From a virus: 47,445 nucleotides of DNA. Position 1 is the stretch's first letter. Each line of letters opens with the position of its first letter. Positions 9,371-28,386 of the stretch are shown here, piece after piece. The notes beneath the pieces were generated by a model. That model worked only from the letters and a program-made list of their open reading frames with translations, searched no databases and was not told where the DNA came from. The translations under genes were made by a program, and so were the position numbers. Location of the stretch: IMG/VR virus record IMGVR_UViG_3300021964_009065, positions 1-47,445 of that record; one strand, 5' to 3'.

Positions 9371-9373
9371 TGG

Positions 9374-10360: not shown

Positions 10361-10386
10361 TTGATTTTCCTAGTTATTCTTTTTAT

Positions 10387-10394
10387 TATTTATA
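10387..10394 (-). promoter_or_regulatory. T4-type late promoter box before gp13
   Basis: TATAAATA on the minus strand in the gap between the 108-residue gene and gp13, 27 nt from the gp13 ATG. It would drive the neck-terminase operon. Confidence 0.75.
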
Positions 10395-10399
10395 ATACA

Positions 10400-10726
10400 T
10401 TATTGTTGCCATACTAGAGTGCTTCCTAAGTATATTGCAGTAATTGTTTTTTCTGATCCATTTGCATCATAAAACCTTACATCAGTTGGTTGTTGATTGC
10501 CCACATAAAATAAGTTTGTACCAGATGGCGGAGTAGAAGCGCCGAATGATATAGGATAAACTTGTGTAACTGTTGATGTATCATCAGCATAATCGTATAA
10601 TTTATCACCAGTAATTCCAGCAATGCCAGTTAACTGTGTGGAGTAATATATTGATATAGCTGGTTCACTTGACGTAGCACTAATAAAAGCATCATCTATA
10701 CCAAAGTTTTTAATATCTGCTGACAT
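10400..10726 (-). CDS. Small putative virion protein ending in a GSTLVWQQ motif
   Basis: A 108-residue protein without recognisable enzymatic motif. Its C-terminus (ITAIYLGSTLVWQQ) is a short beta motif that recurs at the ends of many phage tail and fibre proteins. The start overlaps the stop of the 665-residue spike-like gene by one base, so the two are likely made together, and it may be an accessory or cap subunit of that spike. The role is inferred from the context and the motif. Confidence 0.7.
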   Translation of the reverse strand: MSADIKNFGIDDAFISATSSEPAISIYYSTQLTGIAGITGDKLYDYADDTSTVTQVYPISFGASTPPSGTNLFYVGNQQPTDVRFYDANGSEKTITAIYLGSTLVWQQ

Positions 10727-12723
10727 TATGTTATACTAAAGGTATTAAATGCAACAGAACAATTTGCAGTTGATGTTTTAGTCATAACAACTTCAGCAAA
10801 TAGTTGTGATACAAGGGCAGCTTTAAGCTCTCCAGGAGAAAATGTATCACTAAATAAAATAGTAGTGCCGCTTACAGTAGGTGTAAGTGTTTTAAATACT
10901 ACTAAACCAGATGACAATCCATATGCATATAAATTAATAGTAATATCAACACCTGGACCAGCAGTCGTGTTAAAAAATGTTTCAAATGTATAATCACTTG
11001 TTGCATTACTAAAATTTGGAAGTTCTAACCTATACATTTGCTTATATGAATAGCCATTTGATGTCCCAAATAATCTCCAACACGTTTTACCTGAAAACGC
11101 AGATGGGCTCTTATATTCAATTGCAACTGGAGCATAACTATTATTGGAAAAATACGCGTGTGGAATAAGGTTAACTGCATTATTACTAGTGCTTTCATAT
11201 GCAACAAAGAATTTATTGCCTGAACTATCCTGATAAGATTGGTTCCCTGCGGCAAGAGAAGAGGCAGGAGAAGATGATACAGTATCAATAGTTTCTCCAG
11301 CATTTTCTATTACTAGTTCATTAAACCAAATACCCTGCACTTCATAACCAAGCGTCGCTGATTTAAGTATACTGTTTGAATTACAATATAATTTATATGC
11401 TGTTGTATCTGTAATACCTCTTCTACTAGGAAGAGATAAGTAATTAAATCCAACATCCCCATCATAGTATGAATAGGTATTACTGTTAAACTGTGGAACA
11501 TCTGTTGAGTCTATTGTTCCAACAGATTCATTTACAACATTAATTTTTCCAGAAAACTCAATATTGCTAGAAGATCTTCTAGTTTCATATTCAAAATCAT
11601 TTTCAATAGTTAAAATAATGTTTGAATTATAATTACCCGCACCTCTAAGTTCTAGACCATATTCTCCAAAAAATTTTTTCAATCTAATATTAAGTATAGC
11701 TGAATCAGATTCTTGAGAACCAATATAATTGAAATCAAAATAAAATCTATAGTATCCATGCATAATAGTATCAATAAACACATCTGGAGAATATGTTGTA
11801 TTTCCAGCAGACCTAAGAGCGTACGATTGATATTCTTGATATGCTCCATGAATTGCTTGACCTATACGCATTCTACCCGGCTTTACTGATGTAGTTGTCC
11901 AATCAGTTAAATTAGATGGATCATCAGCTTGTCCACTAGACACGTATTGATAATAACCAGGAGAATAATTGCAACTAACTAAAGCTTTTACTGCTAGATC
12001 AGCTGCATATATTGCCATATAGCGATTATATCCTGATGCAAAAACAAGAGTATCTTCACAATCTACCCAAAATCTATTATAGTTATAGTCATTATTATTA
12101 TTATTGTATCCAAAATGGAAATTATATGAGGTATCTAATACAATATATGTAATACCGTTTTGTTGTGTTTCACTTGTCCAGCCTGCAGTAACTTTAGCAG
12201 GATTTGAAGAGAAACTACCATAATTAGCAATCCTATAATCAAATGTAGCGTTACCAGTACTTTTACTATTTGGGTTTGTTATTCTATAATTCGTATTAAA
12301 TACATCATATCCTGCATTTGTGTCCAATTTAGGATATGCAGCCCACCAAGTTGATACATCACGAACACCTCTAATATAATTACTAGAATGTGTATAGCAA
12401 TAATATTCAGGGTTGTTGTTATAAAGGCCAGTAACTTTTAAAAATTGATTTGTATCTGATCCAACATACCATCTGTAATCTTCATTGCCATCATTTGATG
12501 TTGATGAATATGCTCTGCCTGTGACATTCCAAAATGAAGAATCAGATAGACCTTTAATTCTTATTTCATCTCCTTCATTTATTGAACTTTGACTTAAAGC
12601 ATTAGACCCATTCATATCCCACCAGCTATATGGGGAAGTGTATGTACCACTGCCAGAACCTGTAGTTCCATGAATACCGCCATTAACAGTATCTAAATAA
12701 GGATCAACCCAAATTATAGCCAT
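10726..12723 (-). CDS. Spike-like or tail-fibre protein, paralogue A
   Basis: A 665-residue Tyr, Ser and Asn-rich protein starting MAIIWVDPYLDTVNGG. The N-terminal pattern of W.DPYL..GGIHGTT followed by G(T/S)Y.SP is typical of phage beta-helix spikes. The middle is probably a solenoid; the last 130 residues form a Thr/Ser-rich beta domain that resembles a carbohydrate-binding or trimerising end. It is paralogous along its length to the 658-residue protein at 12979-14955, sharing AGWTSETQQNGIT near residue 180 and the C-terminal TKTS....VA.N pattern. Likely a host-surface glycan-binding or -cutting spike; no catalytic residues can be named. Confidence 0.75.
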   Translation of the reverse strand: MAIIWVDPYLDTVNGGIHGTTGSGSGTYTSPYSWWDMNGSNALSQSSINEGDEIRIKGLSDSSFWNVTGRAYSSTSNDGNEDYRWYVGSDTNQFLKVTGLYNNNPEYYCYTHSSNYIRGVRDVSTWWAAYPKLDTNAGYDVFNTNYRITNPNSKSTGNATFDYRIANYGSFSSNPAKVTAGWTSETQQNGITYIVLDTSYNFHFGYNNNNNDYNYNRFWVDCEDTLVFASGYNRYMAIYAADLAVKALVSCNYSPGYYQYVSSGQADDPSNLTDWTTTSVKPGRMRIGQAIHGAYQEYQSYALRSAGNTTYSPDVFIDTIMHGYYRFYFDFNYIGSQESDSAILNIRLKKFFGEYGLELRGAGNYNSNIILTIENDFEYETRRSSSNIEFSGKINVVNESVGTIDSTDVPQFNSNTYSYYDGDVGFNYLSLPSRRGITDTTAYKLYCNSNSILKSATLGYEVQGIWFNELVIENAGETIDTVSSSPASSLAAGNQSYQDSSGNKFFVAYESTSNNAVNLIPHAYFSNNSYAPVAIEYKSPSAFSGKTCWRLFGTSNGYSYKQMYRLELPNFSNATSDYTFETFFNTTAGPGVDITINLYAYGLSSGLVVFKTLTPTVSGTTILFSDTFSPGELKAALVSQLFAEVVMTKTSTANCSVAFNTFSIT

Positions 12724-15560: not shown

Positions 15561-16244
15561 TTATTTATACATTTTGTATTCTATATTTTCATCATAATTA
15601 CCATTGATTGATACTGTAAATGTAAAATTATGAGTATTTCCATTTTGTTGGTTTAAACCATATTTTCCTATATTTTCAGACCGAGTAGAAGAAGGATATA
15701 AACACATAATATTATTATTTTTAACATAATCGGTAATATTCATGTCCCAAGTTCTATTCCATTTAATATTTTCTTTAAGATTGTTCCATAATGTCTTACT
15801 AATTGACCAGGCCCATGGAGTAAACCAATTCCATTCAAAAATCTTTTCTTGTACACTCAAATCAAACTTGTGTGAAAATGCACATGTTATTAAATTTAAA
15901 TCGTGCGTTTGATAAAAATATTTTAATGTATCATTTGCTATAAGTATATCTTCTTCTATACATACAACATGATCATAGCCTAAATTGAAAACCCTGTCTA
16001 TCCCATCTCTATGATTTGCGCCGCATCCTAAAGGTATATCATTAATTTTTATTGTGTTAGAAGTTAAAGGATAATTAATGTTTTTTAAAAATTTAGTAGC
16101 AATTTTAATAATATTTTTATTATGAGAATCAAAATTAAAAAATAAATCATATTTTTCTAAATATAAAGTTTTAGAAACAGAATCCAATACTTGTTGAAAA
16201 TATTCAGGTCTATTATATGCTATGAATACGATCGCTGATTTCAT
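15561..16244 (-). CDS. GT-A fold glycosyltransferase (GNT-I / GT13-like)
   Basis: A 227-residue protein. The start MKSAIVFIAYNRPEYFQQVL is the usual opening of a GT-A nucleotide-sugar-binding domain. A candidate metal-binding acidic motif CIEEDILIANDTLKYF lies at residues 95-110, resembling the EED/EDD-L..APDF motif of N-acetylglucosaminyltransferase I-like enzymes, and the WFTPWAWSIS segment near 138 fits an acceptor loop. It is the last island gene in transcription order, overlapping the kinase gene by 32 nt. Probable role: adding a sugar to the glycan built by the island. Donor and acceptor are unknown. Confidence 0.75.
   Translation of the reverse strand: MKSAIVFIAYNRPEYFQQVLDSVSKTLYLEKYDLFFNFDSHNKNIIKIATKFLKNINYPLTSNTIKINDIPLGCGANHRDGIDRVFNLGYDHVVCIEEDILIANDTLKYFYQTHDLNLITCAFSHKFDLSVQEKIFEWNWFTPWAWSISKTLWNNLKENIKWNRTWDMNITDYVKNNNIMCLYPSSTRSENIGKYGLNQQNGNTHNFTFTVSINGNYDENIEYKMYK
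15562..15569 (-). promoter_or_regulatory. T4-type late promoter box before the 186-residue fibre gene
   Basis: TATAAATA on the minus strand, 36 nt upstream of the fibre ATG and overlapping the last codons of the first glycosyltransferase-like gene of the island. It marks where a new late transcript starts after the island. Confidence 0.72.
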
Positions 16245-16626
16245 CTATTTCCTTATCAGTTAAAAATTTATCTATTTGTATATCATATGTTGTTGGTTCT
16301 ACAAATACTTTATTGGTATCTTCAAATCTTCCTTTATCAATAGTATTCATCCATATTGTTTTATCTGGATTAAATATCTTTCTTATTTCTGGAGTAGGAG
16401 CAACAAAATCACATATCACAATCTTACCCTTTCTACAATCACTATTGGCTAATGCTTTCATTCTTCGTGCTTGTCTTAAACGTCCTTCTTCACTAAAATC
16501 CCAATCATCAAATGTTTCACGTATAACATCAGCGTTATACCACATTGATCCTTTAAACCTTTGGTGTAGTCTTTGTGCTAGCCAAGTTTTACCAGAACCG
16601 GGTAAACCACATATAAGTATCTTCAT
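16213..16626 (-). CDS. Adenylylsulfate (APS) kinase-like P-loop kinase
   Basis: A 137-residue P-loop kinase of the CysC type. The Walker A motif GLPGSGKT is at residues 7-14, followed by WYNADVIRETFDDWDFSEEGRLRQARR, which matches the APS kinase pattern of a D.(V/L)R (substrate-binding) and an F....R motif, and ICDFVAPTPEIR near 72, equivalent to the S.(I/V)(A/S)P....R motif. CysC phosphorylates APS to PAPS, the sulfate donor; here two sulfotransferase-like genes lie in the same operon. It is shorter than typical CysC (about 200 residues), so a different small-molecule kinase is possible. Confidence 0.75.
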   Translation of the reverse strand: MKILICGLPGSGKTWLAQRLHQRFKGSMWYNADVIRETFDDWDFSEEGRLRQARRMKALANSDCRKGKIVICDFVAPTPEIRKIFNPDKTIWMNTIDKGRFEDTNKVFVEPTTYDIQIDKFLTDKEIDEISDRIHSI

Positions 16627-16970
16627 TAGAATCCTTTATTACGTTCTACATTAATAGCAATTGCTGTAACATCTACATCTGGCTTCTTATCATTCACTAA
16701 TACTCTTTCACCACGAGGTAGATCAAATATAATATGATTAAATCTTATATTATTATCATTTAAGAATTGCATTGTTTGATCTCTAAATTTTTTAGGTCTT
16801 GCAGTAGTCAATATAATCATATCATCTGAATTAAATGTATTCCATAGATCTTTTACACCAGGCAATAATTCATCTCGATCTTCAGTAAATATGAGATTAT
16901 ATTTTAATATAGTACCATCTAGATCAAAAATATACGTTTTAGGGTGTGGTGATTTAAATTCAATATTCAT
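16626..16970 (-). CDS. Small HAD-family phosphatase
   Basis: A 114-residue HAD hydrolase. Motif I is FDLDGT at residues 15-20 with the nucleophile Asp16 and acid Asp18; motif II is LTTARPK at 54-60; the C-terminal LVNDKKPDVD carries acidic residues of the motif III/IV region. Such minimal cap-less HADs in capsule or LPS clusters usually dephosphorylate sugar phosphates. The ATG of the kinase gene overlaps its stop (TAATG). Substrate unknown; probably a sugar phosphate feeding the glycan pathway. Confidence 0.82.
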   Translation of the reverse strand: MNIEFKSPHPKTYIFDLDGTILKYNLIFTEDRDELLPGVKDLWNTFNSDDMIILTTARPKKFRDQTMQFLNDNNIRFNHIIFDLPRGERVLVNDKKPDVDVTAIAINVERNKGF

Positions 16971-17499
16971 ATTGTTTTATTGGATAACCAATTAAATTAA
17001 AAAATTCTTTTCCTAAAGTATTAGTAATAACATTTTTTGCTTCTTGGGTGACTAATGGTGCGTTATATTTTAAATATGTTTTAGTTCTAGCCGGATCCCA
17101 ATCACTGTTGTATGGAATATTTTTTCTTCTATATTTAATTAATAAATCTTCGTAATGAATTAATTTTGTTTTATCTAAAGTAATCCAAGACATATAAAAA
17201 TCTTGGTAAAGCCTACACAATTCTTTTAAATTAATGTGATGAGGACCAAGATAATCTTTTTCATTGTGCAATTTATAAAATGGAAAATATTTTTTAATGT
17301 CCACCTGATTTCTAAAACATATTGATTCAACCCACGTATATGGATTCTTTATAATACAGAATACTTTATGACAATTAACCGGTATTGTTTCATCTCTAAT
17401 TGAATGCTTATGATAAGGATGCACACAATCAGTTACATTACTAAAAATAGATGTAGCAAAATTTGTACCTGATCTTTGTAATCCGTTTAATAAAATCAT
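16960..17499 (-). CDS. Sulfotransferase-like protein (short)
   Basis: A 179-residue P-loop protein starting MILLNGLQRSGTNFATSIF. GLQRSGTNF at residues 5-13 is the 5'-phosphosulfate-binding loop typical of PAPS-dependent sulfotransferases, and CIIKNPYTWVESI near 49-61 fits the 3'-phosphate-binding strand-helix. It is short for the family (usually 250 or more residues). The start is joined to the 31-residue gene in an ATGA overlap, and the end overlaps the HAD gene by 11 nt. Likely transfers sulfate to a glycan; the PAPS could come from the kinase encoded two genes downstream. Confidence 0.75.
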   Translation of the reverse strand: MILLNGLQRSGTNFATSIFSNVTDCVHPYHKHSIRDETIPVNCHKVFCIIKNPYTWVESICFRNQVDIKKYFPFYKLHNEKDYLGPHHINLKELCRLYQDFYMSWITLDKTKLIHYEDLLIKYRRKNIPYNSDWDPARTKTYLKYNAPLVTQEAKNVITNTLGKEFFNLIGYPIKQYEY

Positions 17500-17591
17500 T
17501 TATATATAAATGGATCTTTTTCTTTAGCTTTTTTCAAAAGTCTTTTTGATTTAAAGTAAAAGATAATTTTATTAATTAATTTGGTAAACAT
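17496..17591 (-). CDS. 31-residue basic protein next to carbamoyltransferase
   Basis: I found this by reading the gap after the carbamoyltransferase. It starts MFTKLINKIIFYFKSK and ends KDPFIYK. Support: a GGAG ribosome site 7 nt before the ATG, a start that overlaps the end of the carbamoyltransferase frame by 16 nt, and a stop in an ATGA overlap with the sulfotransferase start. The product is strongly basic with a short hydrophobic, possibly membrane-surface helix. Small partner proteins (DUF5989-like) are encoded next to carbamoyltransferases in many bacteria; this might be a reduced version, but that is an analogy only. Confidence 0.7.
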   Translation of the reverse strand: MFTKLINKIIFYFKSKRLLKKAKEKDPFIYK

Positions 17592-19060
17592 ATTTCTACT
17601 CCATATTTTTTTGACCACCTTAATGCGTCTTCTTTTGAATTTACAAGTGGTTCACCTTTTATATTTAAACTTGTATTTAATAGCATAGGGCACCCAGTTT
17701 TTTCATACCATATTTGAAGTAATTTATATAAATCTGGATGATCATTTTTATTTACAGTTTGAACCCTACTAGTGTTATCATAATGAACAATTGCTGGAAA
17801 TTTATTTGGTTCTAAACAATCTACAGTATATTGCATGTATGGGCTCTTAAATCCTTTATTCACATTAAAATATTTATGAACATATTCTTCTAATATAACT
17901 GGAGCAAAAGGTCTAAATGGTTCTCTGTGTTTAATTTTATTTACTCTATCTTTTACAGTTTTACCTCTTGGGTCTGCTAAGATACTTCTATTACCTAATG
18001 CTCTTGGGCCAAATTCCGCTTTACCACTAGCAACCGCAGTAATTTTATCTATTAATAATTTATTAATAATAGTATCTATAGGATATTTACCTTTTATATC
18101 ATGCCCCAAATATGCTCCAGGAAAATCAATGTGTTCATTCCAATTTGATAACACACAACCAATAGCACTACCAGCATCTCCAGGGTTTGGCATAATCCAT
18201 ACATCATCATATAATTCAAATGACATAGTATTTGCAACACAATTAAGAGCACACCCTCCCATTATAACCAAATTATTTGAATCAATATTTGATTTCATCC
18301 AGACTAAAATAGTAACAAATATTTCCTCATATATCTTTTGAACTGATGCCGCAATATCATAATAATCTTGTTCACTTGTTAAATCAGGTCTCCATGATAA
18401 ACACCCACGATGTAAGTTATTTTTAAATATAATGCTTGGATCATTTGTATTTGGAAGCTTTTCAAAAAAATCATTTTTAATATCATTATAATATTTTTTA
18501 TAATCTCCTAAGGCTGCCATTCCCATTAAAATATATTCATGCTCTTGTGGCTTTAGATCTAATCTTTGTGTCATAGCAGAATACCAAAGACCTACACTAT
18601 TAGGATATCCTTGTGAATATACCTTATTTAAACTATTATTCTTACCATGCCAAATGGTGAATGTTTCCCATTCACCTATACTATCTAAACATAATATTGC
18701 TGCATCTTTAAATGGACTCGTATAATAACCTGCAGCTGCATGACTTCTATGATGGGAACTAAATTTTAATTTAGTATTAATACCAAACTTTTTAAGGTGT
18801 GATTTAGGAGATTTTGATAAAAGTAAATTATATTGACCGGAATATAATTGTCTTGTCTTTTTTAATAAAGGCTTTTCATAAAAATGAATTTCATCAGGTC
18901 GTCCATATGCTAGAGCTTCTTTGATAATATCATCATTTAAATATTCATCATTTTTAACTCTACTGTATCTTTCGCTATGACTAGCAAATACTAATTTTTT
19001 ATTATCAAATACCGCTAAAGCGGCATCATGGCTCATACCACTCCATCCCCATGTAATCAT
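17576..19060 (-). CDS. Carbamoyltransferase (NodU/CmcH family)
   Basis: A 494-residue O-carbamoyltransferase, which uses carbamoyl phosphate and ATP to carbamoylate a hydroxyl of a sugar or other metabolite. Visible signatures are the ATP/carbamoyl-adenylate His motif HHRSHAAAGYY at 103-113, MGGCALNC at 267-274, GPRALGNRSILADPR at 351-365 (characteristic of the family's second domain), PFRPFAPVILEE at 381-392 and LNTSLNIKGEPLV near the end. Slightly shorter than many family members (about 550-600 residues) but all key blocks are present. It follows the SGNH hydrolase gene by 3 nt. Confidence 0.93.
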   Translation of the reverse strand: MITWGWSGMSHDAALAVFDNKKLVFASHSERYSRVKNDEYLNDDIIKEALAYGRPDEIHFYEKPLLKKTRQLYSGQYNLLLSKSPKSHLKKFGINTKLKFSSHHRSHAAAGYYTSPFKDAAILCLDSIGEWETFTIWHGKNNSLNKVYSQGYPNSVGLWYSAMTQRLDLKPQEHEYILMGMAALGDYKKYYNDIKNDFFEKLPNTNDPSIIFKNNLHRGCLSWRPDLTSEQDYYDIAASVQKIYEEIFVTILVWMKSNIDSNNLVIMGGCALNCVANTMSFELYDDVWIMPNPGDAGSAIGCVLSNWNEHIDFPGAYLGHDIKGKYPIDTIINKLLIDKITAVASGKAEFGPRALGNRSILADPRGKTVKDRVNKIKHREPFRPFAPVILEEYVHKYFNVNKGFKSPYMQYTVDCLEPNKFPAIVHYDNTSRVQTVNKNDHPDLYKLLQIWYEKTGCPMLLNTSLNIKGEPLVNSKEDALRWSKKYGVEICLPN

Positions 19061-19063
19061 ATT

Positions 19064-20035
19064 TTAAAATCCTAAGTTTTGTTTAACTTGTTTCCATCTA
19101 TTATAAACTTTATTATTATATTCATATCCTGGATGACTTCCAGTGCGATGATGACCGTAATCTCTAGCAATATTATAATTAGTTTCATTAATTGTGCTCT
19201 TATTATTATTTGGAATTATTTTTTCAATAGATTTATCAAAATCATATTCTGGCAAAGGAGTAATATGCCACACTGGAACATTAGCATATTTGCATAAAGT
19301 GTCAACTTGTTTTTTTATTTCAACAAATGTTCCTTGCATTTGAAAATCGTTTTGCAAATAATTAATATATGCTTCATCATAATAGTTTTCAATAGGAAGC
19401 AACTTTGTTATACCATGTCGTATTATAGTATCACCATGTAAATATGACCAACGTGTTAAATGTGTCCAATTACAAATAATTAGTTTAGGTGGAGCTTTTT
19501 TTGATAACAATTTATTTAAATTAATTAATATTGTATTATTTGAACCTCCTGGAATAGCAGCATTTACAATGTCTGCATTTAATTCTTCAGATATTTTTGT
19601 AGAAAATAAATCTTCAGCTGGCATGCCAGTGCCGACCGTGTAACTACACCCAAAAACAGCAATATAATTTGACCAATCAATATCCTTAAATTCTTTCATT
19701 CTATATCCAAGAGAATTTATTTTATATGTTATAGGTTTATCATACCATATCCATTCTTTACCTAGATGTTCTCTATTTTTAACAAATAATTCTTGTGTAT
19801 CAGTGTCATAGAAATCTAAAACCTTAGATTTATGATGATAAATTTTACTAACATCTATTAATAATTTTTCGTTAAGTAATAAATGATTTCTTTCATTACT
19901 AGATAACAATTTATTCTCAATTTCATCTAAACTTAAACCTGAGTTAACATAAGCATCTAATCCATTATTATCTGGATATCTTGCTAAAATTTTATGATAC
20001 AGGCTAACAATTTTATCTTTTCTCGTCTTAAACAT
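19064..20035 (-). CDS. SGNH/GDSL-like hydrolase with N-terminal DUF4214-type segment
   Basis: A 323-residue two-part protein. Residues 1-50 (IVSLYHKILARYPDNNGLDAYV...LLSS) look like a DUF4214-type repeat found in surface and glycan proteins. Residues 120-323 have an SGNH hydrolase layout: FGCSYTVGTG at 128-137 with the candidate nucleophile Ser131, PGGSNN at 162-167 as the Gly/Asn blocks, and a late His cluster YGHHRTGSHPG where the catalytic His would lie. Such proteins add or remove acyl groups on polysaccharides. The start codon lies within a 28-bp tandem duplication, so a second ATG in another frame occurs just upstream. Confidence 0.75.
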   Translation of the reverse strand: MFKTRKDKIVSLYHKILARYPDNNGLDAYVNSGLSLDEIENKLLSSNERNHLLLNEKLLIDVSKIYHHKSKVLDFYDTDTQELFVKNREHLGKEWIWYDKPITYKINSLGYRMKEFKDIDWSNYIAVFGCSYTVGTGMPAEDLFSTKISEELNADIVNAAIPGGSNNTILINLNKLLSKKAPPKLIICNWTHLTRWSYLHGDTIIRHGITKLLPIENYYDEAYINYLQNDFQMQGTFVEIKKQVDTLCKYANVPVWHITPLPEYDFDKSIEKIIPNNNKSTINETNYNIARDYGHHRTGSHPGYEYNNKVYNRWKQVKQNLGF

Positions 20036-20075
20036 TTTATCTAATCTTTCTCGTCTTAAACATTTTATCTAATCT
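20019..20075 (-). repeat. 28-bp tandem duplication across a start codon
   Basis: Bases 20019-20047 and 20047-20075 are identical over 29 positions with a period of 28. The unit contains the translation start region of the SGNH hydrolase gene (TAAAATGTTTAAGACGAGA on the minus strand), so the ATG is present twice, out of frame with each other. The outer end reaches the stop codon of the preceding sulfotransferase gene (20069-20071). Confidence 0.95.
20037..20063 (-). other. 8-codon upstream reading frame made by the tandem duplication
   Basis: The duplicated ATG at 20061-20063 opens MFKTRKIR and stops with TAA at 20037-20039, one base before the ATG of the SGNH hydrolase gene (TAAAATG). It could couple or dampen translation of the hydrolase, or be neutral. 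Only the sequence arrangement is observed; no function is shown. Confidence 0.4.
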
Positions 20076-20887
20076 AACATCCATTCGTATTTTGTATTTT
20101 GCAACTCTCTACAAATTTCATCATAATTTGTAATATCATATTCAATGCCTTTTGATATTTTTTTAAGTGGTATAGTGTAATTATCATAGTGAGGAATTTT
20201 TATGTAATTTTCTATCATCTTTATGGCAACAAATGGATCATTTTCAATATGATCTTCATAAATAATATCCAAATAATTTACATTGTATTCTTGTAATTTT
20301 AATAATAATTCTTTTTGATCTTTCTCATATACATCAATATATTCATATATTGAAGATATATTATTTCCTCTAGGTAATATGGGATTATGATAATAATTAA
20401 ATGAATCACCTTCATTTAGTTCACTATTCATAATGCATTCATTAAAAGTAAATTTAAATTTAAATTCTGTAGATTGATTATTGTCCTTGTGCCAAATCTT
20501 ACTATATCGGGCTTTATAGTAACTTATAATCTGTTTAAGAATGTTTTTTCTTCTTATAATAATTAAATTTTTAAAATTATTTTTAATAAAATTTGCATGA
20601 ATATCTATGTCATATATTTCAGAAATATATCCAATATCTAAATCACAATATTGAAAACATACTATTTTTTTATTTTTTGGTAACGCCCTAACAACTGGTT
20701 CCATAAAATCTTTTAATGAAACTTCTTTTGGCTTTTGGGGGTTTAATTTTAATCTTTGATTTGTTAATGACACTCTATCCGGCATATATGGTTCATTAAT
20801 TGCATTTACTAATGGATGTTGTGTTAGAATATGGTCTACTGCAGTAGACCCTGATCTTGGATAAAATATTAATGGAATAATTTTCAT
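20069..20887 (-). CDS. Sulfotransferase-like protein (full length)
   Basis: A 272-residue PAPS-dependent sulfotransferase-like protein. The 5'-phosphosulfate loop FYPRSGSTAVDHIL is at residues 8-21, and NLIIIRRKNILKQIISYYKA near 106-125 matches the 3'-phosphate-binding RR..... S motif of the superfamily. INEPY near 30 is also typical. Predicted to transfer sulfate from PAPS to a glycan hydroxyl. It overlaps the cytidylyltransferase gene by 4 nt (ATGA) and precedes the SGNH hydrolase gene. Together with the APS kinase at 16213-16626 it suggests glycan sulfation. Confidence 0.8.
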   Translation of the reverse strand: MKIIPLIFYPRSGSTAVDHILTQHPLVNAINEPYMPDRVSLTNQRLKLNPQKPKEVSLKDFMEPVVRALPKNKKIVCFQYCDLDIGYISEIYDIDIHANFIKNNFKNLIIIRRKNILKQIISYYKARYSKIWHKDNNQSTEFKFKFTFNECIMNSELNEGDSFNYYHNPILPRGNNISSIYEYIDVYEKDQKELLLKLQEYNVNYLDIIYEDHIENDPFVAIKMIENYIKIPHYDNYTIPLKKISKGIEYDITNYDEICRELQNTKYEWMLD

Positions 20888-21648
20888 TTTCTAATAATGT
20901 CCTCTTCATTGCATTCATCACCATATTGTATCTCAATAACACATAATGGTTCTATACCGCAGTTTTCTAACCTATGCCATGTAGTTCTAATAACATCATT
21001 AGAATTATGTCTATATAGTTTTTTCTCAAGTACTTCTTTGCCTTCATGATCAAGTGAATACACTGTTGCTTCACCAGATTCTACAAACCAATATTCAGAT
21101 CTATGATTATGATATTGCATAGAAATGGATTTTCCTGGTTCTAAAATTAATCTTTTAACCTTAGATTCTGGTGATTCATAATATGTAATATATTCACCCC
21201 ATTTTCTTTTAACTGATGGTTGATTCCATTCTTTAAGTATCCATGATGAACTATTCTTTTTATAATCACCACCAATACCAAATACAAATTCAACTCTTGG
21301 ATTATCTTTAAATTTATCCATCTCCGGAATATTAGTAGATGTTCGATCTCCGCCATTAGCAAAGACAATAGTTTGATTTGGCCACATATCGAGTGCATAC
21401 TGTATTGCATTACACGCTGTATTATCTGAATCATCAAATGATATAACTTCAAGTACATTCTTAAATTGATCTAGTACGGCTTTGCGTTCTTCAAAAGGCA
21501 TAAATGATCGACCCTTTTTACGGGCTAACCATTCATCTGAATTTAATGCAAGAATAACTCTGCCAAGTTTTCTACATTCATCAATGCATTGAATATGACC
21601 ACTATGTATAGGATCAAATCCACCACTAAATACTATTATCTTATCCAT
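20884..21648 (-). CDS. Cytidylyltransferase fused to a mannose-6-phosphate isomerase-type cupin
   Basis: A 254-residue two-domain enzyme. The N-terminal domain has the nucleotidyltransferase motif GGFDPIHSGH at residues 9-18 and a later SSSWI (133-137), in the place of the family's ISST..R motif, as in glycerol-3-phosphate or heptose-1-phosphate type transferases. Residues about 148-254 match the C-terminal cupin of ManC/PMI type II enzymes: KVKRLILEPGKSIS, YHNHRSEYWFVESGEA, WHRLENCGIEPL and IEIQYGDECNEEDIIR. I chose the ATG at 21648 because AGGAA lies 6 nt before it; a start two codons further upstream (21654) is possible. It probably makes an activated sugar or polyol for the island. Confidence 0.85.
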   Translation of the reverse strand: MDKIIVFSGGFDPIHSGHIQCIDECRKLGRVILALNSDEWLARKKGRSFMPFEERKAVLDQFKNVLEVISFDDSDNTACNAIQYALDMWPNQTIVFANGGDRTSTNIPEMDKFKDNPRVEFVFGIGGDYKKNSSSWILKEWNQPSVKRKWGEYITYYESPESKVKRLILEPGKSISMQYHNHRSEYWFVESGEATVYSLDHEGKEVLEKKLYRHNSNDVIRTTWHRLENCGIEPLCVIEIQYGDECNEEDIIRK

Positions 21649-21657
21649 AATCATTTC

Positions 21658-22332
21658 CTAATTTTGCGGTTCTAAATACATGCTCCACATTAGAGATTCA
21701 TCTTTAATATATTTATTATTAATTTTAAAATGGTTTGTTTGTATTTCATGCCATTTTGATTTACTAAATGTATCAATAATACCACCATTTAGTTTAGACT
21801 CAATTTCTTCTAATATTTCAATTGAAGGAATTTTTTCTAATAGAGGAAGAATTCTATTAATATCATCATCTGAATATTTCCACCACTGAATTTGCAAGAA
21901 TTTATCAATAATATCTTTCTCAAAACGATATTTAATAAATTTAGCAGGATTCCCTCCATATATAGAGTATGCCGGAACATTTTTTATTACATTAGAATTT
22001 GCTGCAATTATTGCTCCATCTCCTATTGTTACACCGTGTTTTATATGTACATTTGCACCAATCCATACATCATTACCAATAATAATATTTCCCTTTGATG
22101 GATATTTTCTTATTTTTCTATGAGACACGTCCCAATTAGGCGTATGAAAGGGTGAATTAGTTCCTGTTTCTTTATAATGATCTCCATCACTTAAAAACAT
22201 ATGACAATTGTGGGCTATTGATGTAAAATTTCCAATATGTATTTCACTATTTACATTTTTTTCATAAAAAGTGTGTATTTGTATAGGACAAGTATAATAA
22301 GAATATTTACCTACGCTTTTAATTTGTTTCAT
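21658..22332 (-). CDS. Hexapeptide-repeat acyltransferase (CatB/LbH type)
   Basis: A 224-residue left-handed beta-helix acetyltransferase. The repeat region runs from about residue 28 to 150, including IHIGNFTSIAHNCHMF, the catalytic-type His in FLSDGDHY, and the closing IIIGNDVWIGANVHIKHG, VTIGDGAIIAANSNVI and YSIYGGNPAKFIKYRF, which is the signature of the CatB/Vat-like family. It would transfer acetyl from acetyl-CoA to a sugar amino or hydroxyl group. It follows the glycosyltransferase gene by one base. Confidence 0.9.
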   Translation of the reverse strand: MKQIKSVGKYSYYTCPIQIHTFYEKNVNSEIHIGNFTSIAHNCHMFLSDGDHYKETGTNSPFHTPNWDVSHRKIRKYPSKGNIIIGNDVWIGANVHIKHGVTIGDGAIIAANSNVIKNVPAYSIYGGNPAKFIKYRFEKDIIDKFLQIQWWKYSDDDINRILPLLEKIPSIEILEEIESKLNGGIIDTFSKSKWHEIQTNHFKINNKYIKDESLMWSMYLEPQN

Positions 22333-22333
22333 A

Positions 22334-23041
22334 CTAAAATCTATTAAATTTATGAATATTATCTAATTTTTGGTATTCTTTATAGATATCTAATTTTTCA
22401 AGCATTATAAACATTGCTTCAGCATCAACTCCTAATTGATCATTAGCTGGATACACTTTATGGTTTAATATTTTTCCATTATTTCTAGTTACAGCCCATG
22501 AAATAACTAAATCATCTGCCTTGTAACATAACTCTGGATACATTGCTTCATAGTTGAATATATCATACAATAAATTTATATCTATTATTGCAAAATTTGT
22601 GGCACCATAGCTAAATTCAGTATAATCGTTTGTAAACTGGTTCCAAACATCTTTTGTAATAATTGGTTGGGATTTTAAAAATTGCCGGCCTTGAAAAACT
22701 TTATATGTATTTTTTTCTTTTGTTTCCCATATTTTTTCTATAGAATCATTATTTAATATTATATCATCATCTAACAATATAATATATTGATTATCTGACA
22801 AATGTTCATTTATATAATACCATCTTTCAAAAGTCATTCGAGAATTATCGGCTTCATAAAAGTTTATATTAAAATGCCTTTTATATTTGTCAATCACAGA
22901 TAAAAATAGATTATTATGTTTAGGATTATTTGAAATAACATGTAAATTAAAATCTACAGTTTGATTGATTAATGAGTCTAATACTTGTCTAAAATACTGT
23001 GGTCTATTATAAACCATCATTACAACATTAATATCATTCAT
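22334..23041 (-). CDS. GT-A glycosyltransferase (family 2-like)
   Basis: A 235-residue glycosyltransferase. It opens INVVMMVYNRPQYFRQVLDSL, the classical GT-A nucleotide-binding strand-helix, and has the metal-binding motif ILLDDDIIL with Asp91-93. DDLVISWA near residue 192 is a plausible catalytic or acceptor motif. The start overlaps the FkbM methyltransferase gene by 4 nt. It resembles the GT at 15561-16244 in its opening but differs elsewhere. Donor sugar unknown. Confidence 0.82.
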   Translation of the reverse strand: MNDINVVMMVYNRPQYFRQVLDSLINQTVDFNLHVISNNPKHNNLFLSVIDKYKRHFNINFYEADNSRMTFERWYYINEHLSDNQYIILLDDDIILNNDSIEKIWETKEKNTYKVFQGRQFLKSQPIITKDVWNQFTNDYTEFSYGATNFAIIDINLLYDIFNYEAMYPELCYKADDLVISWAVTRNNGKILNHKVYPANDQLGVDAEAMFIMLEKLDIYKEYQKLDNIHKFNRF

Positions 23042-23685
23042 ATTTTTTCCATTACTATATCTTCATCCCATATATCAGATATTATATCCCATTTAAATCC
23101 AAATTTGACACTAATCTCATTAGCAAATTTAATTAATATTTCATTATTATTAAAGTTAGCCGCGCATTCAAAGATAAGTTTTTTATTTACTTTAAATTTT
23201 TTATTTTCCCAAAGATTAACTAATTGCTTTAGGATAATAGGTTCATATCCTTCAACATCTATTTTTAATTGGTCAACTTCAGAAATATTATATTTTTTTA
23301 ATAGAGTTTCAAGACTCATTAATTTTACTATTCTTGTGTGATATGTGTCTTTGTGATGTATTTTATCAGCGCCAATAAATGATGAAGTTCCTGAATGAAA
23401 AATATTCTTTGATTTCATATATCTATCTAATGCTTTTTTATTCTTATATAATTTATGAGGCACATATTCAATAATATCTCCTTCAAGTATAACAGTTAAT
23501 TCTTTTTCTCCATCATATTCACCTATGCCTACACATTCAACAAGAACTGTATCTGATTGGGGCAATATTGCACAGTATTCTTCAATTGGTTCTACTAATA
23601 AACCTTTTGCCGACGTCCCATAAAAATAGTCATCAGATGAAACTGAACACTGACCACATCCTATATCTATAAAATCATATTTCAT
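23038..23685 (-). CDS. FkbM-family methyltransferase, copy 1
   Basis: A 215-residue SAM-dependent O-methyltransferase of the FkbM type. The N-terminal FIDIGCGQCSVSSD is the SAM-binding Gly loop and LKIDVEGYEPIIL at about 140-152 is the family's characteristic K.D.EG.E motif. I set the start at the ATG at 23685 because it aligns with the start of the neighbouring paralogue; an upstream GTG at 23697 would add four residues. It is paralogous to the next gene (23704-24354). Likely methylates a sugar hydroxyl in the glycan. Confidence 0.85.
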   Translation of the reverse strand: MKYDFIDIGCGQCSVSSDDYFYGTSAKGLLVEPIEEYCAILPQSDTVLVECVGIGEYDGEKELTVILEGDIIEYVPHKLYKNKKALDRYMKSKNIFHSGTSSFIGADKIHHKDTYHTRIVKLMSLETLLKKYNISEVDQLKIDVEGYEPIILKQLVNLWENKKFKVNKKLIFECAANFNNNEILIKFANEISVKFGFKWDIISDIWDEDIVMEKI

Positions 23686-23703
23686 TTTTAATATCACTCA
23701 TGA

Positions 23704-24354
23704 TTATTCCATTTTATCCATAACCATATCTTCATTCCAAGGAAAGGTAAATTCATACCTTGAATTAAATCCATGTTTTAATTTTATTCTTTCCATTAAA
23801 TCATCCAATATAGTTTTATCCTCTGCCTTTTCATTATATTCAAATTTAATTTGCTTATTAATAATTATTTTTTTATCATCTAATAGTTTAAGTAATTGAT
23901 TCAATATTATATGCTCAGCACCCTCAACATCAATTTTTAAATAATCTATTTCTGTTACATTATGTTTTTTAAATAAGGATTCTAATGTTAAAGATCTTAC
24001 ATTAATTTTTTTGGATATATTTTGATTTTTTTCATATTCATATAATGAACTCTGACCAGATGCTGGATATAATTTTCTATACAATTCTAAACTTTTGTCG
24101 TTTTTAACAATTCTTGCCATTTGTGTATTTGTGAAATATTTTATATTAGCTGAATCGGGTATAATAGCATTAAAAGTAATAGTATCTTCAACGTTTGATA
24201 CAACACAACATTCTTTTATAATATTTGGGCCTGAAGGTAACACATCAATAAATTCTTTAATAGGCTCTACATACATGCCTACTACACTGGTTCCAAATAT
24301 ATCTGACGAAACACTTTGGTGTCCACATCCTATGTCTATAAATTTATATTTCAT
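23704..24354 (-). CDS. FkbM-family methyltransferase, copy 2
   Basis: A 216-residue FkbM methyltransferase, paralogue of the gene after it in transcription order. It starts MKYKFIDIGCGHQSVSSD, has VEPIKEF..VLPSGP (VEPIEEYCAILPQSD in copy 1) and the motif LKIDVEGAEHIIL. The two copies differ clearly in the middle, so they probably methylate different positions or sugars. The start overlaps the preceding glycosyltransferase gene by 4 nt. Confidence 0.85.
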   Translation of the reverse strand: MKYKFIDIGCGHQSVSSDIFGTSVVGMYVEPIKEFIDVLPSGPNIIKECCVVSNVEDTITFNAIIPDSANIKYFTNTQMARIVKNDKSLELYRKLYPASGQSSLYEYEKNQNISKKINVRSLTLESLFKKHNVTEIDYLKIDVEGAEHIILNQLLKLLDDKKIIINKQIKFEYNEKAEDKTILDDLMERIKLKHGFNSRYEFTFPWNEDMVMDKME

Positions 24355-25085
24355 CTAAAAATTTTCTTGTTATCACACTGTATTACATTATTTATTCTAT
24401 AATATTTAGGATCATCTAACATTATTTTTCTAAGTTTTTCTGTTCTTAGAAAATAATCTGAATTAGTGATATTATCTATCTCTCTACCATTCTTTTTATC
24501 ATGTGGGTGTGGATTATAAAATTTATAATTATTTAAAATATAATAGGGTAACATTTTATTATTCATCCCAACATTGGCCATGATAAAATCTATACCAGTA
24601 CTCCATTCTAAATCTAATTCAAACCATTTATCTATTGTTAACTTTAATAAGTCTTGCCTAACCATCATAAATAGCATTTCTATGTAATTAGTTTTAGAAT
24701 ATTTTCCAGTATTATTACAATATAATTCATTAAAAAATCCATATGAATTAGAAGTTCTGCTCCATTGACATAGAGGCCAATTATTTGAATGGGCTATTTT
24801 AAAAGTATCTTCCAAATCTTTATAATTCAAATCTAAATCACTATCCACAATTAAAACATATTCATAATCTTTAAATAAATTATATCTATTTGCAAAGTTT
24901 TGCCAAATCATTCCTTTACTTTTATATATGTATTCTGTATCTAGATTTTGAAGTTTTTTATACTTTTCTTTATCATCTCCATAATAAAAAATTGCTCTAT
25001 CATATATATCAGATTTATGTGTACACCATGATAAAAATTCATCTGAAGAATCACCTACTCCACTGAAAATTAAATACTTCTTCAT
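24351..25085 (-). CDS. Putative glycosyltransferase with DSD motif
   Basis: A 244-residue protein that reads as a GT-A-like transferase: MKKYLIFSGVGDSSDEFLSWC at the start, a candidate metal-binding motif LIVDSDLDL at residues 78-86, and WSTGIDFIMAN near 165 as acceptor-side residues. It resembles DUF707-type or similar uncharacterised glycosyltransferases. Overlaps its neighbours by 4 nt and 1 nt. Sugar specificity unknown; the enzyme class is inferred from the motif and surroundings. Confidence 0.65.
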   Translation of the reverse strand: MKKYLIFSGVGDSSDEFLSWCTHKSDIYDRAIFYYGDDKEKYKKLQNLDTEYIYKSKGMIWQNFANRYNLFKDYEYVLIVDSDLDLNYKDLEDTFKIAHSNNWPLCQWSRTSNSYGFFNELYCNNTGKYSKTNYIEMLFMMVRQDLLKLTIDKWFELDLEWSTGIDFIMANVGMNNKMLPYYILNNYKFYNPHPHDKKNGREIDNITNSDYFLRTEKLRKIMLDDPKYYRINNVIQCDNKKIFR

Positions 25086-25879
25086 TATATACCAAAATCA
25101 TTTCTTGACATTCTTTGTACTATATAATCTGAGTGATGTTTTTTTTGACGTTCGGCAACTAGATCGCTGCTAATTGTTGTATTTTGATATACTACAGGTT
25201 TTAGTAAAGCATAATAATTAACTACTAATTTTGGATCAAAACATTTTAAATGATTCCAAATATCATCCGCTGGATAAATTATTTTATGTTGAATTGTGGA
25301 TAAAAGTTTACAAAATTCTATTGATGGAGAATAAGCGTGAGCACCATGGACCATATCTACATTATAAGAGTGTTCATCTATTTTATAGTATTTATAACCA
25401 TTTAATTCTAAAAATTCATTTTTAAAATAACAAATGCTGTTATCACCCTTTTCTGTTTTTATCTGTGACATTATTTCATAAGGATATGATTGTTCTTTAG
25501 AATGTTCATTTCTAGTATTAGAGGTAAAATAACCATATAATAATAAGTCTACTTTATCTGGTATGTCTATATTAATCATTTCAGTAAACTTTTCATCTAT
25601 TATAACATCATCTTCAAATATAATTCCTCTTTCACCAGAATCAATAATTTTTTGATATGCTAATCTGTGTGATGCACCACTTGCAGCTTCATTTTTAGAT
25701 AATTCAAAGCCATGTCTTTTCATTAATTTAACATTGCCAATTTCATTTACATCTTTATAGTCTTGGCCGTCAATTGCTTCAATAAATTCATAATTAGTAA
25801 TTCCAAGATTTTGTAACTGTTCTAAAATCTTTTCTTTTCTATCAGTTCGTCTTTTAAGATTTATAATATAAATTTTCAT
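25085..25879 (-). CDS. Glycosyltransferase family 25 (LPS-type)
   Basis: A 264-residue GT25 enzyme. Hallmarks are the N-terminal MKIYIINLKRRTDRKEKI, EFIEAIDG at 31-38, SHRLAYQKIID at about 70-80 and the acidic motif IIFEDDVII at 86-94, followed by HGAHAYSPS, the usual Y(L/I)(I/V)S-like position. GT25 enzymes add galactose or related sugars to lipooligosaccharides. The start overlaps the radical SAM gene in an ATGA junction. Confidence 0.9.
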   Translation of the reverse strand: MKIYIINLKRRTDRKEKILEQLQNLGITNYEFIEAIDGQDYKDVNEIGNVKLMKRHGFELSKNEAASGASHRLAYQKIIDSGERGIIFEDDVIIDEKFTEMINIDIPDKVDLLLYGYFTSNTRNEHSKEQSYPYEIMSQIKTEKGDNSICYFKNEFLELNGYKYYKIDEHSYNVDMVHGAHAYSPSIEFCKLLSTIQHKIIYPADDIWNHLKCFDPKLVVNYYALLKPVVYQNTTISSDLVAERQKKHHSDYIVQRMSRNDFGI

Positions 25880-26853
25880 TTACTTATTTTGGTTTTTATT
25901 CCATGATTATCAAGATTTTGACCAGTTTTTTTCTGGCATATTTCTATACATCTGAAATTTGGATTTGTTTTAAATGACTTTGGAAGAGTCTTCATTGACC
26001 ATTTATTAATTGCGCAGTTTATTAGTGGAAGATCATTAGAAGGTCTATTTACAATTCTATTTGGTAAATGTTGAGAACTTAGTGATGCCAACCAACAACA
26101 TACATGTACGTTGCTATCAGCTGCAATATATATGCTATTTTTCTTTGCCGAATAGCAATCTATTTCTTTGGTAGGAATATTTGAATTTGTGTATTTAGTA
26201 GTTTTTTCAAGAGAATAATTAGATCCTTTAAACACATAGTTTAATGGAGCTTCTAATCTTGTAGACGGTTCTATTGAAAACCCAGAAAACCCCATATCTT
26301 TAGCAGTTTTTTCACAAATATCAACTTGGTCTTCATTATGCTTGTGAACTACCATTTTCCAAGTAGCACATCCGCCTGCTTCTATAAAAGCTTTTGCGTT
26401 ATTAAATATTTTATTAATAGATGTACCAACCCTATACCTACTGTGTATTTCTTGTGTAACACCTTCAATACCAAACTCTACATAATGATTTTGTTCTTTT
26501 AGTATTCCTGCAAGCGTTTTCCACCATCCAGTCGATCGAACTCCGCCATTTGTATGTACAGTTATTTTATCAGGTTTTATCGCTGTTTTAGTGTATTCAA
26601 TAATATCTAGAAAATCTTTTGCTAAAATAGGATCGCCATAATTACCACAGAAGAACATATCATATATTGGTTTATCCCATGAACTAAACATTTTTTTAAA
26701 TGTATCTATTGTAATTTCATTTCCTTTTACAGATTCAGCTGTAGTTAAACTACCATCATTATTAATCTTTGTTCTTGCACAGGAAGGACATCTAGCATTA
26801 CATTTATCAGTAAGCTCTATATGAAATTGAAACGGCTTTTTAATATCATACAT
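25876..26853 (-). CDS. Radical SAM protein with SPASM-like C-terminus
   Basis: A 325-residue radical SAM enzyme. The iron-sulfur cluster motif is C18-x3-C22-x2-C25 (CNARCPSC) after FHIELTD, and the GNYGDPI and VHTNGG stretches at about 69 and 99 fit SAM-binding strands. The C-terminal part has further Cys (CYSAKK, VHVCCW, CIEICQK) where SPASM auxiliary clusters bind. Substrate unknown. In glycan clusters such enzymes can dehydrate, epimerise or methylate sugars, and SPASM enzymes also modify peptides. Confidence 0.85.
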   Translation of the reverse strand: MYDIKKPFQFHIELTDKCNARCPSCARTKINNDGSLTTAESVKGNEITIDTFKKMFSSWDKPIYDMFFCGNYGDPILAKDFLDIIEYTKTAIKPDKITVHTNGGVRSTGWWKTLAGILKEQNHYVEFGIEGVTQEIHSRYRVGTSINKIFNNAKAFIEAGGCATWKMVVHKHNEDQVDICEKTAKDMGFSGFSIEPSTRLEAPLNYVFKGSNYSLEKTTKYTNSNIPTKEIDCYSAKKNSIYIAADSNVHVCCWLASLSSQHLPNRIVNRPSNDLPLINCAINKWSMKTLPKSFKTNPNFRCIEICQKKTGQNLDNHGIKTKISK

Positions 26854-26865
26854 AATTTAAAACTT

Positions 26866-28386
26866 TTATTTTAATCTTTTTAGTGCTTCTAATTTATTAA
26901 ATATGTCTTGACGTTTCTTTTGTTTATCTACTTGAGATCCAAATAAAACATTCTTCATTTTAGCATAGATTATATCATGTTTACTTATTGTATCCCATTG
27001 ATCATATTGATTTTTACCAGTCCACCCTATATTATGATGGAACCTTTTATTAATTTCAGGGTGTAAAAACGTAAGAGTTGGGTCTGATTGTATTCCGCCT
27101 TTACCATAATTTTCATTTAAATTTACAAAAGGCAATTGTGTCATTTTCAATGTTTTATAAACAATAAATCCATCATATGGTTCACCCATTGGTAATATAT
27201 TTTCTACTTTATAGTTTTCTTTGAATTTTTTATTCCAGATTTTTGTATTCGGATGTTTACTATCAAAAATAAGTATGCCACTTTCAATGTGGTTTAAATC
27301 ATGCGATTCTTCCATTTGACACGCAAGGAATTTATTATCAAGCATGTTTGGAAAGTCAGAATAGTCTTCAGGTTTAAATATACAATCACCGTCTAACCAT
27401 ATTGCATAATCTGATTTAATATTATCAAGTGCGTGTTGTATTACAAATGCTTTATGACTAAATCTAACTGTCATAGTTTTTACATAATCTGAATGAGATG
27501 TTTTGGCATTATATTCATTTTTCCATTTATTATGGTGTGGAATTGCCGTTTTATAATTAACCCATTCTATATTTGGATGTTGTTCTTGTGGACTAAACCC
27601 TTCGTAATATATTTTTGCGTTGAATTTATTGTAATAATTAGCAACTTTTATGAAAGTTTTTATCCATGTTTTACCATATAATTCATACCCATTTCTATTA
27701 AATGTTGTAAAAAATGTAATATTGTTACTTTGTGTTCTTTCCTCATTCATATGTTTTTCCATTATTCTCCACGAATCATAATCATTAGCACCAGTAATAC
27801 TTGCCTGAGAATGGATTAATGTACCACTAGTTCTCATATCTGAATCTAATAAAAATTGTACTTCATCATTTGAAATATAATTTGTTTCAATTATATTATA
27901 ATATTTTCTTATTGCTGTATGTAATGAATGCATTCCCCACGAAATTGCATGCTTATTTGTAATATGTTTTGCCTCAAATAACATATTATCCATTGCTTCT
28001 TTAATAATGGGGTGTTTTGGTTTTGCACCAAAGAAATAATTTGATATATTATTTAATTCACGCATCCAAACAGCATCTACTTTTGGATTAATAAATTCTG
28101 AAATATTTTTATTACATGTAATATCTAAATCAGAATAATATCCACCATGAATATAAACGACAGCAAGACGCCAAAAATCAGCGCGCATAATTGGAAGTGG
28201 AAGTTGATGATATTGATTATGAATGTCTTTGCCAAAATGCTCTAATATAAAATCAGAACATTGGTTATCATCCATAAATTGAAGTTTAAGTTGTGGATTA
28301 GAGATTTTCCAGGAATCAGCTTGTTTTTTAACTGATCCTGGAATATCTTTTGTTTTCCATGTTTGCCATAATATAGAAGGAATCAT
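26866..28386 (-). CDS. Two-domain glycosyltransferase (GT32-like plus second GT-A domain)
   Basis: A 506-residue protein with two transferase domains. Residues 1-220 match the sugar-binding DXD family (GT32, Och1-like): IPSILWQTWKTKDIP, MRADFWRLAVVYIHGG and the metal site YYSDLD with Asp86 and Asp88. From about residue 222 a second unit starts (NNITFFTTFNRNGYELYGKTW) with its own acidic motif WLDGDC at 330-335 and EESHDLNHIESGIL further on. It could add two successive sugars. It is the first gene of the island in transcription order and lies 19 nt after the fibre gene at 28406-30478. Confidence 0.85.
   Translation of the reverse strand: MIPSILWQTWKTKDIPGSVKKQADSWKISNPQLKLQFMDDNQCSDFILEHFGKDIHNQYHQLPLPIMRADFWRLAVVYIHGGYYSDLDITCNKNISEFINPKVDAVWMRELNNISNYFFGAKPKHPIIKEAMDNMLFEAKHITNKHAISWGMHSLHTAIRKYYNIIETNYISNDEVQFLLDSDMRTSGTLIHSQASITGANDYDSWRIMEKHMNEERTQSNNITFFTTFNRNGYELYGKTWIKTFIKVANYYNKFNAKIYYEGFSPQEQHPNIEWVNYKTAIPHHNKWKNEYNAKTSHSDYVKTMTVRFSHKAFVIQHALDNIKSDYAIWLDGDCIFKPEDYSDFPNMLDNKFLACQMEESHDLNHIESGILIFDSKHPNTKIWNKKFKENYKVENILPMGEPYDGFIVYKTLKMTQLPFVNLNENYGKGGIQSDPTLTFLHPEINKRFHHNIGWTGKNQYDQWDTISKHDIIYAKMKNVLFGSQVDKQKKRQDIFNKLEALKRLK

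Follow-up and report, generated by a model that had tools for sequence, protein, structure and literature searches.

A compact APS-kinase-like protein and two sulfotransferase-like proteins in a putative glycan-modification block of a T4-like marine phage

A kinase and two sulfotransferase-like genes in a low-GC block

The window analysed here is an IMG/VR virus record of 47,445 bases (IMGVR_UViG_3300021964_009065) with T4-like portal, sheath, terminase, and head-closure genes; its portal is closest to those of Methylophilales phage Melnitz (57%) and Pelagibacter phage Mosig (54%). Between the tail-fibre genes lies a block of ~13 kb with low GC content (26-29%, vs 31-39% elsewhere in the window), which carries glycosyltransferases, FkbM methyltransferases, an acetyltransferase, a carbamoyltransferase, and a radical SAM protein, together with a compact kinase and two sulfotransferase-like proteins, ST1 and ST2 (Table 1). 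The block is encoded entirely on the minus strand with few gaps, and several genes overlap slightly: ST1 overlaps a HAD-family phosphatase gene by 11 nucleotides (nt), which overlaps the kinase by 1 nt, and the kinase in turn runs into a glycosyltransferase-like gene. A first-pass annotation had read the kinase as an adenosine 5'-phosphosulfate (APS) kinase, producing the sulfate donor 3'-phosphoadenosine 5'-phosphosulfate (PAPS) for two sulfotransferases encoded alongside. All three reading frames are indeed open and lie on the minus strand in this gap-poor run, and their signals are stronger than chance would give.

Table 1. Genes of the low-GC block, with lengths in amino acids (aa); scores are profile E-values
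Positions	Strand	Product	Length	Remarks
15561..16244	-	glycosyltransferase-like		overlaps kinase 3' end by 32 nt; GNT-I 9.8e-6, slightly under gathering score
16213..16626	-	compact APS-kinase-like P-loop kinase	137 aa	GLPGSGKT, residues 7-14; no C-terminal lid
16626..16970	-	HAD-family phosphatase	114 aa	between ST1 and kinase; weak HAD/PNKP-type matches
16960..17499	-	sulfotransferase-like protein 1 (ST1)	179 aa	QRSGTNF near N-terminus; 5'-phosphosulfate-binding (5'-PSB) loop GLQRSGTN; 3'-phosphate-binding (3'-PB) motif KNPYTWVES
17576..19060	-	NodU/TobZ-type carbamoyltransferase		Pfam Carbam_trans_C 1.2e-54, Carbam_trans_N 7.8e-42
19064..20035	-	SGNH/GDSL-like protein	323 aa	possible esterase or acyltransferase; GCSYTVG motif by eye
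20069..20887	-	sulfotransferase-like protein 2 (ST2)	272 aa	PRSGST near N-terminus; FYPRSGST loop; RRKNILKQIISYYKA 3'-PB-like motif
20884..21654	-	cytidylyltransferase-like domain fused to cupin		CTP_transf_like 5.7e-12, MannoseP_isomer 1.4e-20
21658..22332	-	hexapeptide acetyltransferase		Hexapep 3.1e-11; Vat/CatB-like profile matches under cut-off
22334..23041	-	family 2 glycosyltransferase		Glycos_transf_2 3.3e-9
23038..28386	-	remainder of low-GC block		two FkbM methyltransferases, one unknown, GT25, radical SAM, DXD glycosyltransferase

The best Pfam family of the kinase is APS_kinase (36.2 bits vs a gathering cut-off of 21.1; kinase residues 3-83), an APS kinase is also the closest PDB entry by sequence, and the kinase matches PHROG 10255 'kinase' at 1.8e-31; at least 253 relatives are present in viral contigs. 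Across 42 rows of the family alignment, the Walker A motif GxxGxGK[ST] is invariant, and the motifs DWDF, GR-RQ--RM, and DTN are invariant or nearly so. We take the APS-pocket residues of known APS kinase structures to be Asp, Arg, Phe, Arg, and Asn; D33, R36, F44, and R49 of the kinase family, which presumably correspond to the first four, are invariant, and Gln52 stands at the position of the Asn. An AlphaFold2 model built on the 42-row alignment (mean predicted local distance difference test score, pLDDT, 95.6) retrieved APS kinases at the head of a Foldseek search (1m7g, E=8e-8, query TM score 0.83), and APS kinases, several of them APS-bound, made up the majority of the 50 best PDB folds, with gluconate kinases also listed. 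The kinase is thus predicted to adopt the APS-kinase fold, and structure prediction did not place it in another P-loop family, the outcome that the first-pass annotation had named as fatal to its proposal.

ST1 has no match in Pfam, PHROG, or NCBIfam, and its relatives were found by a degenerate DNA pattern followed by alignment. Homologs at 40-55% identity, and more distant ones at 23-37%, conserve both motifs: K51, P53, W56, and S59 are kept, and G6, L7, Q8, R9, G11, and T12 almost always so. In relatives from T4-like marine phages, the motifs read GLQR[ST]GT and K[NH]PY[ST]W-ES and occur at the spacing canonical for PAPS binding (K51 to S59). Against Pfam, one relative (L192) scores weakly and another (L204) passes the Sulfotransfer_1 cut-off with 32.6 bits. 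The ST1 model (pLDDT 82) returned sulfotransferases, many of them complexes with 3'-phosphoadenosine 5'-phosphate (PAP), as nearly all of its first 20 Foldseek matches, which are weak (E of 6e-3 or higher, TM score about 0.3). On another viral contig, two ST1-family genes stand in tandem (L199:7980-9343).

ST2 matches Sulfotransfer_3 (E=5.9e-5, 23.9 bits vs a cut-off of 27) and Stf0 (E=0.0021), both under the gathering score, and peptide-pattern and protein searches returned no close relatives among isolate phages or viral contigs. Both sulfotransferase-like proteins retain PAPS-loop residues; a lack of PAPS-binding residues was the other outcome that the first-pass annotation had named as fatal. 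With its weak profile matches and motifs, ST2 is plausibly a sulfotransferase and is the least well supported of the three proteins; for the kinase and ST1, sulfation is the best supported of the readings considered.

Relatives of the kinase in phages and bacteria

A nucleotidyltransferase of ~130 aa with an HxGH motif is located downstream of the kinase, or fused to it, in 70 of 83 viral or phage loci and 60 of 75 cellular loci, many of these loci being near-copies of one another. Phages of Stenotrophomonas and Clavibacter, and contigs related to them, carry the two as a fusion (L002:4992-5729, L003:6001-6732, L061:2022-2825), and in marine phages a gene for a DUF2061 membrane protein is often inserted between the two (L059:8398-8640 and about 20 viral loci). 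In a second marine phage contig (L184), the end of an ST1 homolog (55% identity; its N-terminal part is unreadable at the contig end) shares 4 nt with the start of the kinase, next comes the nucleotidyltransferase, and no HAD gene is present. Elsewhere, sulfotransferase-like genes occur within 8 kb of viral kinases in the L016 group, L025, L052/L054, L005, and L082, the gene in L052 being recognised by its motif only, without a Pfam match. The co-occurrence of kinase and sulfotransferase genes in phages, proposed in the first-pass annotation as a check, holds for L184 and a minority of viral loci, whereas most viral kinase loci have no recognisable sulfotransferase nearby. A further viral contig has its kinase flanked by tandem PP-loop genes (SGGADSA) that are possibly CysH/CysD-like (L026:4297-7455).

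The closest alphaproteobacterial homologs connect the family to cysQ, the gene for PAP/PAPS phosphatase. In the intact copies (L086, L088, and L089), cysQ is positioned 11-13 nt upstream of the kinase on the same strand, and L087 carries what appears to be the end of cysQ. The identity of cysQ is based on profile TIGR01331, with 294.8 and 288.3 bits vs a cut-off of 228.8 for the two copies scored (L086 and L089). In these two alphaproteobacterial single-cell genomes, cysQ, compact kinase, and nucleotidyltransferase adjoin on one strand (L086:7202-8802, L089:7198-8802). The genes aprA and aprB, whose product handles APS, adjoin the kinase in about seven SAR11-type loci and are profile-confirmed in one of them (L101); these loci belong to the window kinase's own clade, given that the window kinase clusters with the aprBA-linked cellular kinases at 98/92 support. 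In L101 (Pelagibacteraceae; 7986-11520), the compact kinase pair faces aprA/aprB, along with a putative aprM, in convergent orientation.

Of the 33 kinase-bearing cellular genomes, 26 encode Sulfotransfer_3 proteins above the cut-off and 2 an ATP sulfurylase; canonical full-length APS kinases are also present in 4 of these marine genomes. At least two canonical full-length APS kinases adjoin sulfotransferase-like genes, as judged by motif reading. One full-length APS-kinase-like gene of the Pelagibacteraceae is followed by a PEP-mutase-like gene (L168:1474-3444), suggesting a phosphonate-related paralog.

For the SAR86 order, 81 genomes were compared. The kinase is present in 42 genomes and the nucleotidyltransferase in the same 42, directly downstream in 40 of them, and a sulfotransferase gene is directly upstream of the kinase in 17. 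The combination of kinase and sulfotransferase is seen in 40 genomes, kinase only in 2, sulfotransferase only in 4, and neither in 35 (p=4.5e-16, with no correction for shared ancestry). The search of the 81 genomes yielded no other APS kinase and an ATP sulfurylase in one genome, and PF01507 (CysD/CysH) proteins were absent from the five SAR86 genomes searched for them, a part of the full set. In five of six SAR86 regions inspected (L205-L210), the order sulfotransferase (~366 aa), kinase, nucleotidyltransferase is direct (e.g. L205:1215-3154); in L207, sulfotransferase and kinase stand together and the nucleotidyltransferase is on another contig. Gene context, in the form of cysQ, aprBA, and sulfotransferase operons, thus ties the kinase family to PAPS metabolism. 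An early suspicion that the kinase is not an APS kinase, raised by its partner's likeness to nicotinamide mononucleotide (NMN) adenylyltransferases and by the rarity of nearby sulfotransferases in phages, was overturned by the cysQ, aprBA, and SAR86 operon data.

A sulfation route and its alternatives

We consider it probable that this T4-like marine phage uses the block to modify glycans or surfaces and that the cassette brings along a sulfate-donor supply, with the kinase making PAPS and ST1 and ST2 transferring the sulfate. This proposal draws on sequence, model, and context alike, namely the kinase fold, the PAPS context of the family, the second phage with ST1 beside the kinase, and the conservation of the ST1 motifs. 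The kinase would phosphorylate the 3'-OH of APS with ATP to yield PAPS, from which ST1 and ST2 would move sulfate to hydroxyl groups. The acceptors would most likely be sugars built or decorated by the neighbouring glycosyl-, acetyl-, methyl-, and carbamoyltransferases, and the sulfate might end up on the virion or on the surface of the host. Sulfated virions are conjectural, as are the two acceptor sites that the first-pass annotation took the differences between the two sulfotransferases to suggest. The source of APS would be the host or a nucleotidyltransferase encoded elsewhere in the phage genome.

Several observations weigh against this proposal. The kinase scores far below the cut-off of the NCBIfam apsK equivalog TIGR00455 (31.8 vs 138.7 bits), its APS_kinase match breaks off around profile position 90 out of 152, which is residue 83 of the kinase, and the C-terminal lid is absent, target residues being left unmatched in the fold alignment. 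The HxGH nucleotidyltransferase shows weak similarity, to NMN adenylyltransferases more than to ATP sulfurylase in both profiles and PDB, and has no ATP-sulfurylase profile match. Viral kinase loci with a recognisable sulfotransferase close by are a minority, other phage records with ST1 have no kinase, though these records are fragments, and the best fold match of ST1 is weak. The SAR86 association is to be read with shared ancestry uncorrected. Finally, the nucleotidyltransferase was not found in the 47-kb fragment and APS would still be needed, so the window gives no case for independence from host supply, which the first-pass annotation had foreseen for PAPS.

In comparison with ApsK/CysC (PF01583, TIGR00455), the kinase shares the P-loop, the fold, and presumably the conserved Asp and Arg after strand 2 and the Phe-x(4)-Arg of the APS pocket, and its family shares the neighbourhood logic of cysQ and sulfotransferases. 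It differs in its 137 aa, a match that stops about two thirds of the way along the domain, the lack of a GLYKKAR-type lid segment, and Gln in place of Asn. The label APS kinase therefore stands as regards fold and PAPS gene context and fails as regards canonical ApsK; the protein is better described as a compact relative of APS kinase that would work like ApsK. ST1 and ST2 have the 5'-PSB loop and 3'-PB motif in common with PAPS-dependent sulfotransferases (Sulfotransfer_1, Sulfotransfer_3, Stf0), but ST1 has only 179 aa and is outside Pfam, and ST2 remains under the gathering scores.

Kinase and nucleotidyltransferase might instead make another cofactor of the nucleotide type, such as NAD, starting from nicotinamide riboside as in NadR, or a product resembling coenzyme A, the link to sulfotransferases being incidental. 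The partner's similarity to NMN adenylyltransferases fits such a role, as does a kinase score on AAA_28, which we take to cover NadR kinases, and isolate phages carry the kinase fused to the HxGH domain among DNA-metabolism genes. However, APS kinases rather than nucleoside kinases lead the fold search, and the presence of cysQ, aprBA, and sulfotransferase genes next to the kinase in separate lineages, along with the SAR86 co-occurrence, points to PAPS; we regard a cofactor role as unlikely. A pathway to an activated sugar or polyol, by a logic like that of GmhB/HldE and with sulfotransferase-like genes acting independently, would account for the HAD gene directly between ST1 and kinase, for its match to a PHROG named phosphoheptose isomerase, and for the cytidylyltransferase-cupin gene often found close to viral kinases (in 18-24 viral loci, by method). 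This explanation appears distinctly improbable to us, given that no related kinase in the loci compared adjoins such a HAD gene, that the fold is that of an APS kinase rather than a sugar kinase, gluconate kinases in the list notwithstanding, and that L184 pairs ST1 and kinase without HAD. The idea that kinase and HAD protein together form a polynucleotide kinase/phosphatase was rejected on the same grounds of fold and of a HAD gene that does not travel with the kinase.

The three genes could also be unrelated members of a shuffled cassette, with ST1 and ST2 being P-loop proteins that make no use of PAPS; no profile library recognises ST1, ST2 stays under the cut-offs, and kinase and sulfotransferases are mostly apart in viral contigs. 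We give this very little credence, as the relatives of ST1 keep both PAPS motifs at canonical spacing and one of them reaches the Sulfotransfer_1 cut-off, sulfotransferases dominate the fold matches, and the pairing of ST1 with the kinase recurs in L184.

The relatives of the kinase outside the window provide, from genomic context, a lead of their own. There is, in our view, an even chance that kinase and HxGH nucleotidyltransferase constitute a compact and hitherto unrecognised PAPS synthetase, in which a new kind of ATP sulfurylase and a lid-less APS kinase would feed sulfotransferases in SAR86, many SAR11-type bacteria, and marine phages without known sulfate activation genes. PAPS synthetase, Sat-ApsK, and CysDN-C likewise couple adenylyl transfer and 3'-kinase as adjacent or fused genes; they differ in that the partner here is a ~130-aa HxGH protein and that the window has neither partner nor fusion. 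If correct, the compact pair would explain how PAPS is made in SAR86, with its sulfotransferases, almost no recognisable ATP sulfurylase, and no other APS kinase; the kinase relatives look like the sole recognisable PAPS source for certain bacteria that are very abundant in the ocean. If the proposal for the block holds, phages of abundant marine bacteria would carry enzymes for making the donor as well as for transferring the sulfate, and would use them to modify surfaces. Our literature search, confined to open-access papers, found no report of the kinase paired with this nucleotidyltransferase, nor of an APS kinase together with sulfotransferases in a phage, and novelty is provisional.

Neighbouring genes of the block

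The clustering of carbamoyltransferase, sulfotransferase, and PAPS-making functions is also known from rhizobial Nod factor genes (NodU, NodH, NodPQ), from which the block differs in being phage-borne, in having no recognised NodA/B/C, and in a kinase that is not NodQ-like. Its carbamoyltransferase, of a type common in marine phages, contains both Pfam carbamoyltransferase domains and remains far under the NodU equivalog cut-off (154 vs 1000 bits). The SGNH/GDSL-like protein has no significant Pfam match, and weak homologs of it are present in kinase loci. A homolog 90% identical to the glycosyltransferase-like protein next to the kinase accompanies an ST1 homolog in L185-L188. The HAD phosphatase, in turn, might have PAP or a sugar phosphate as its substrate.

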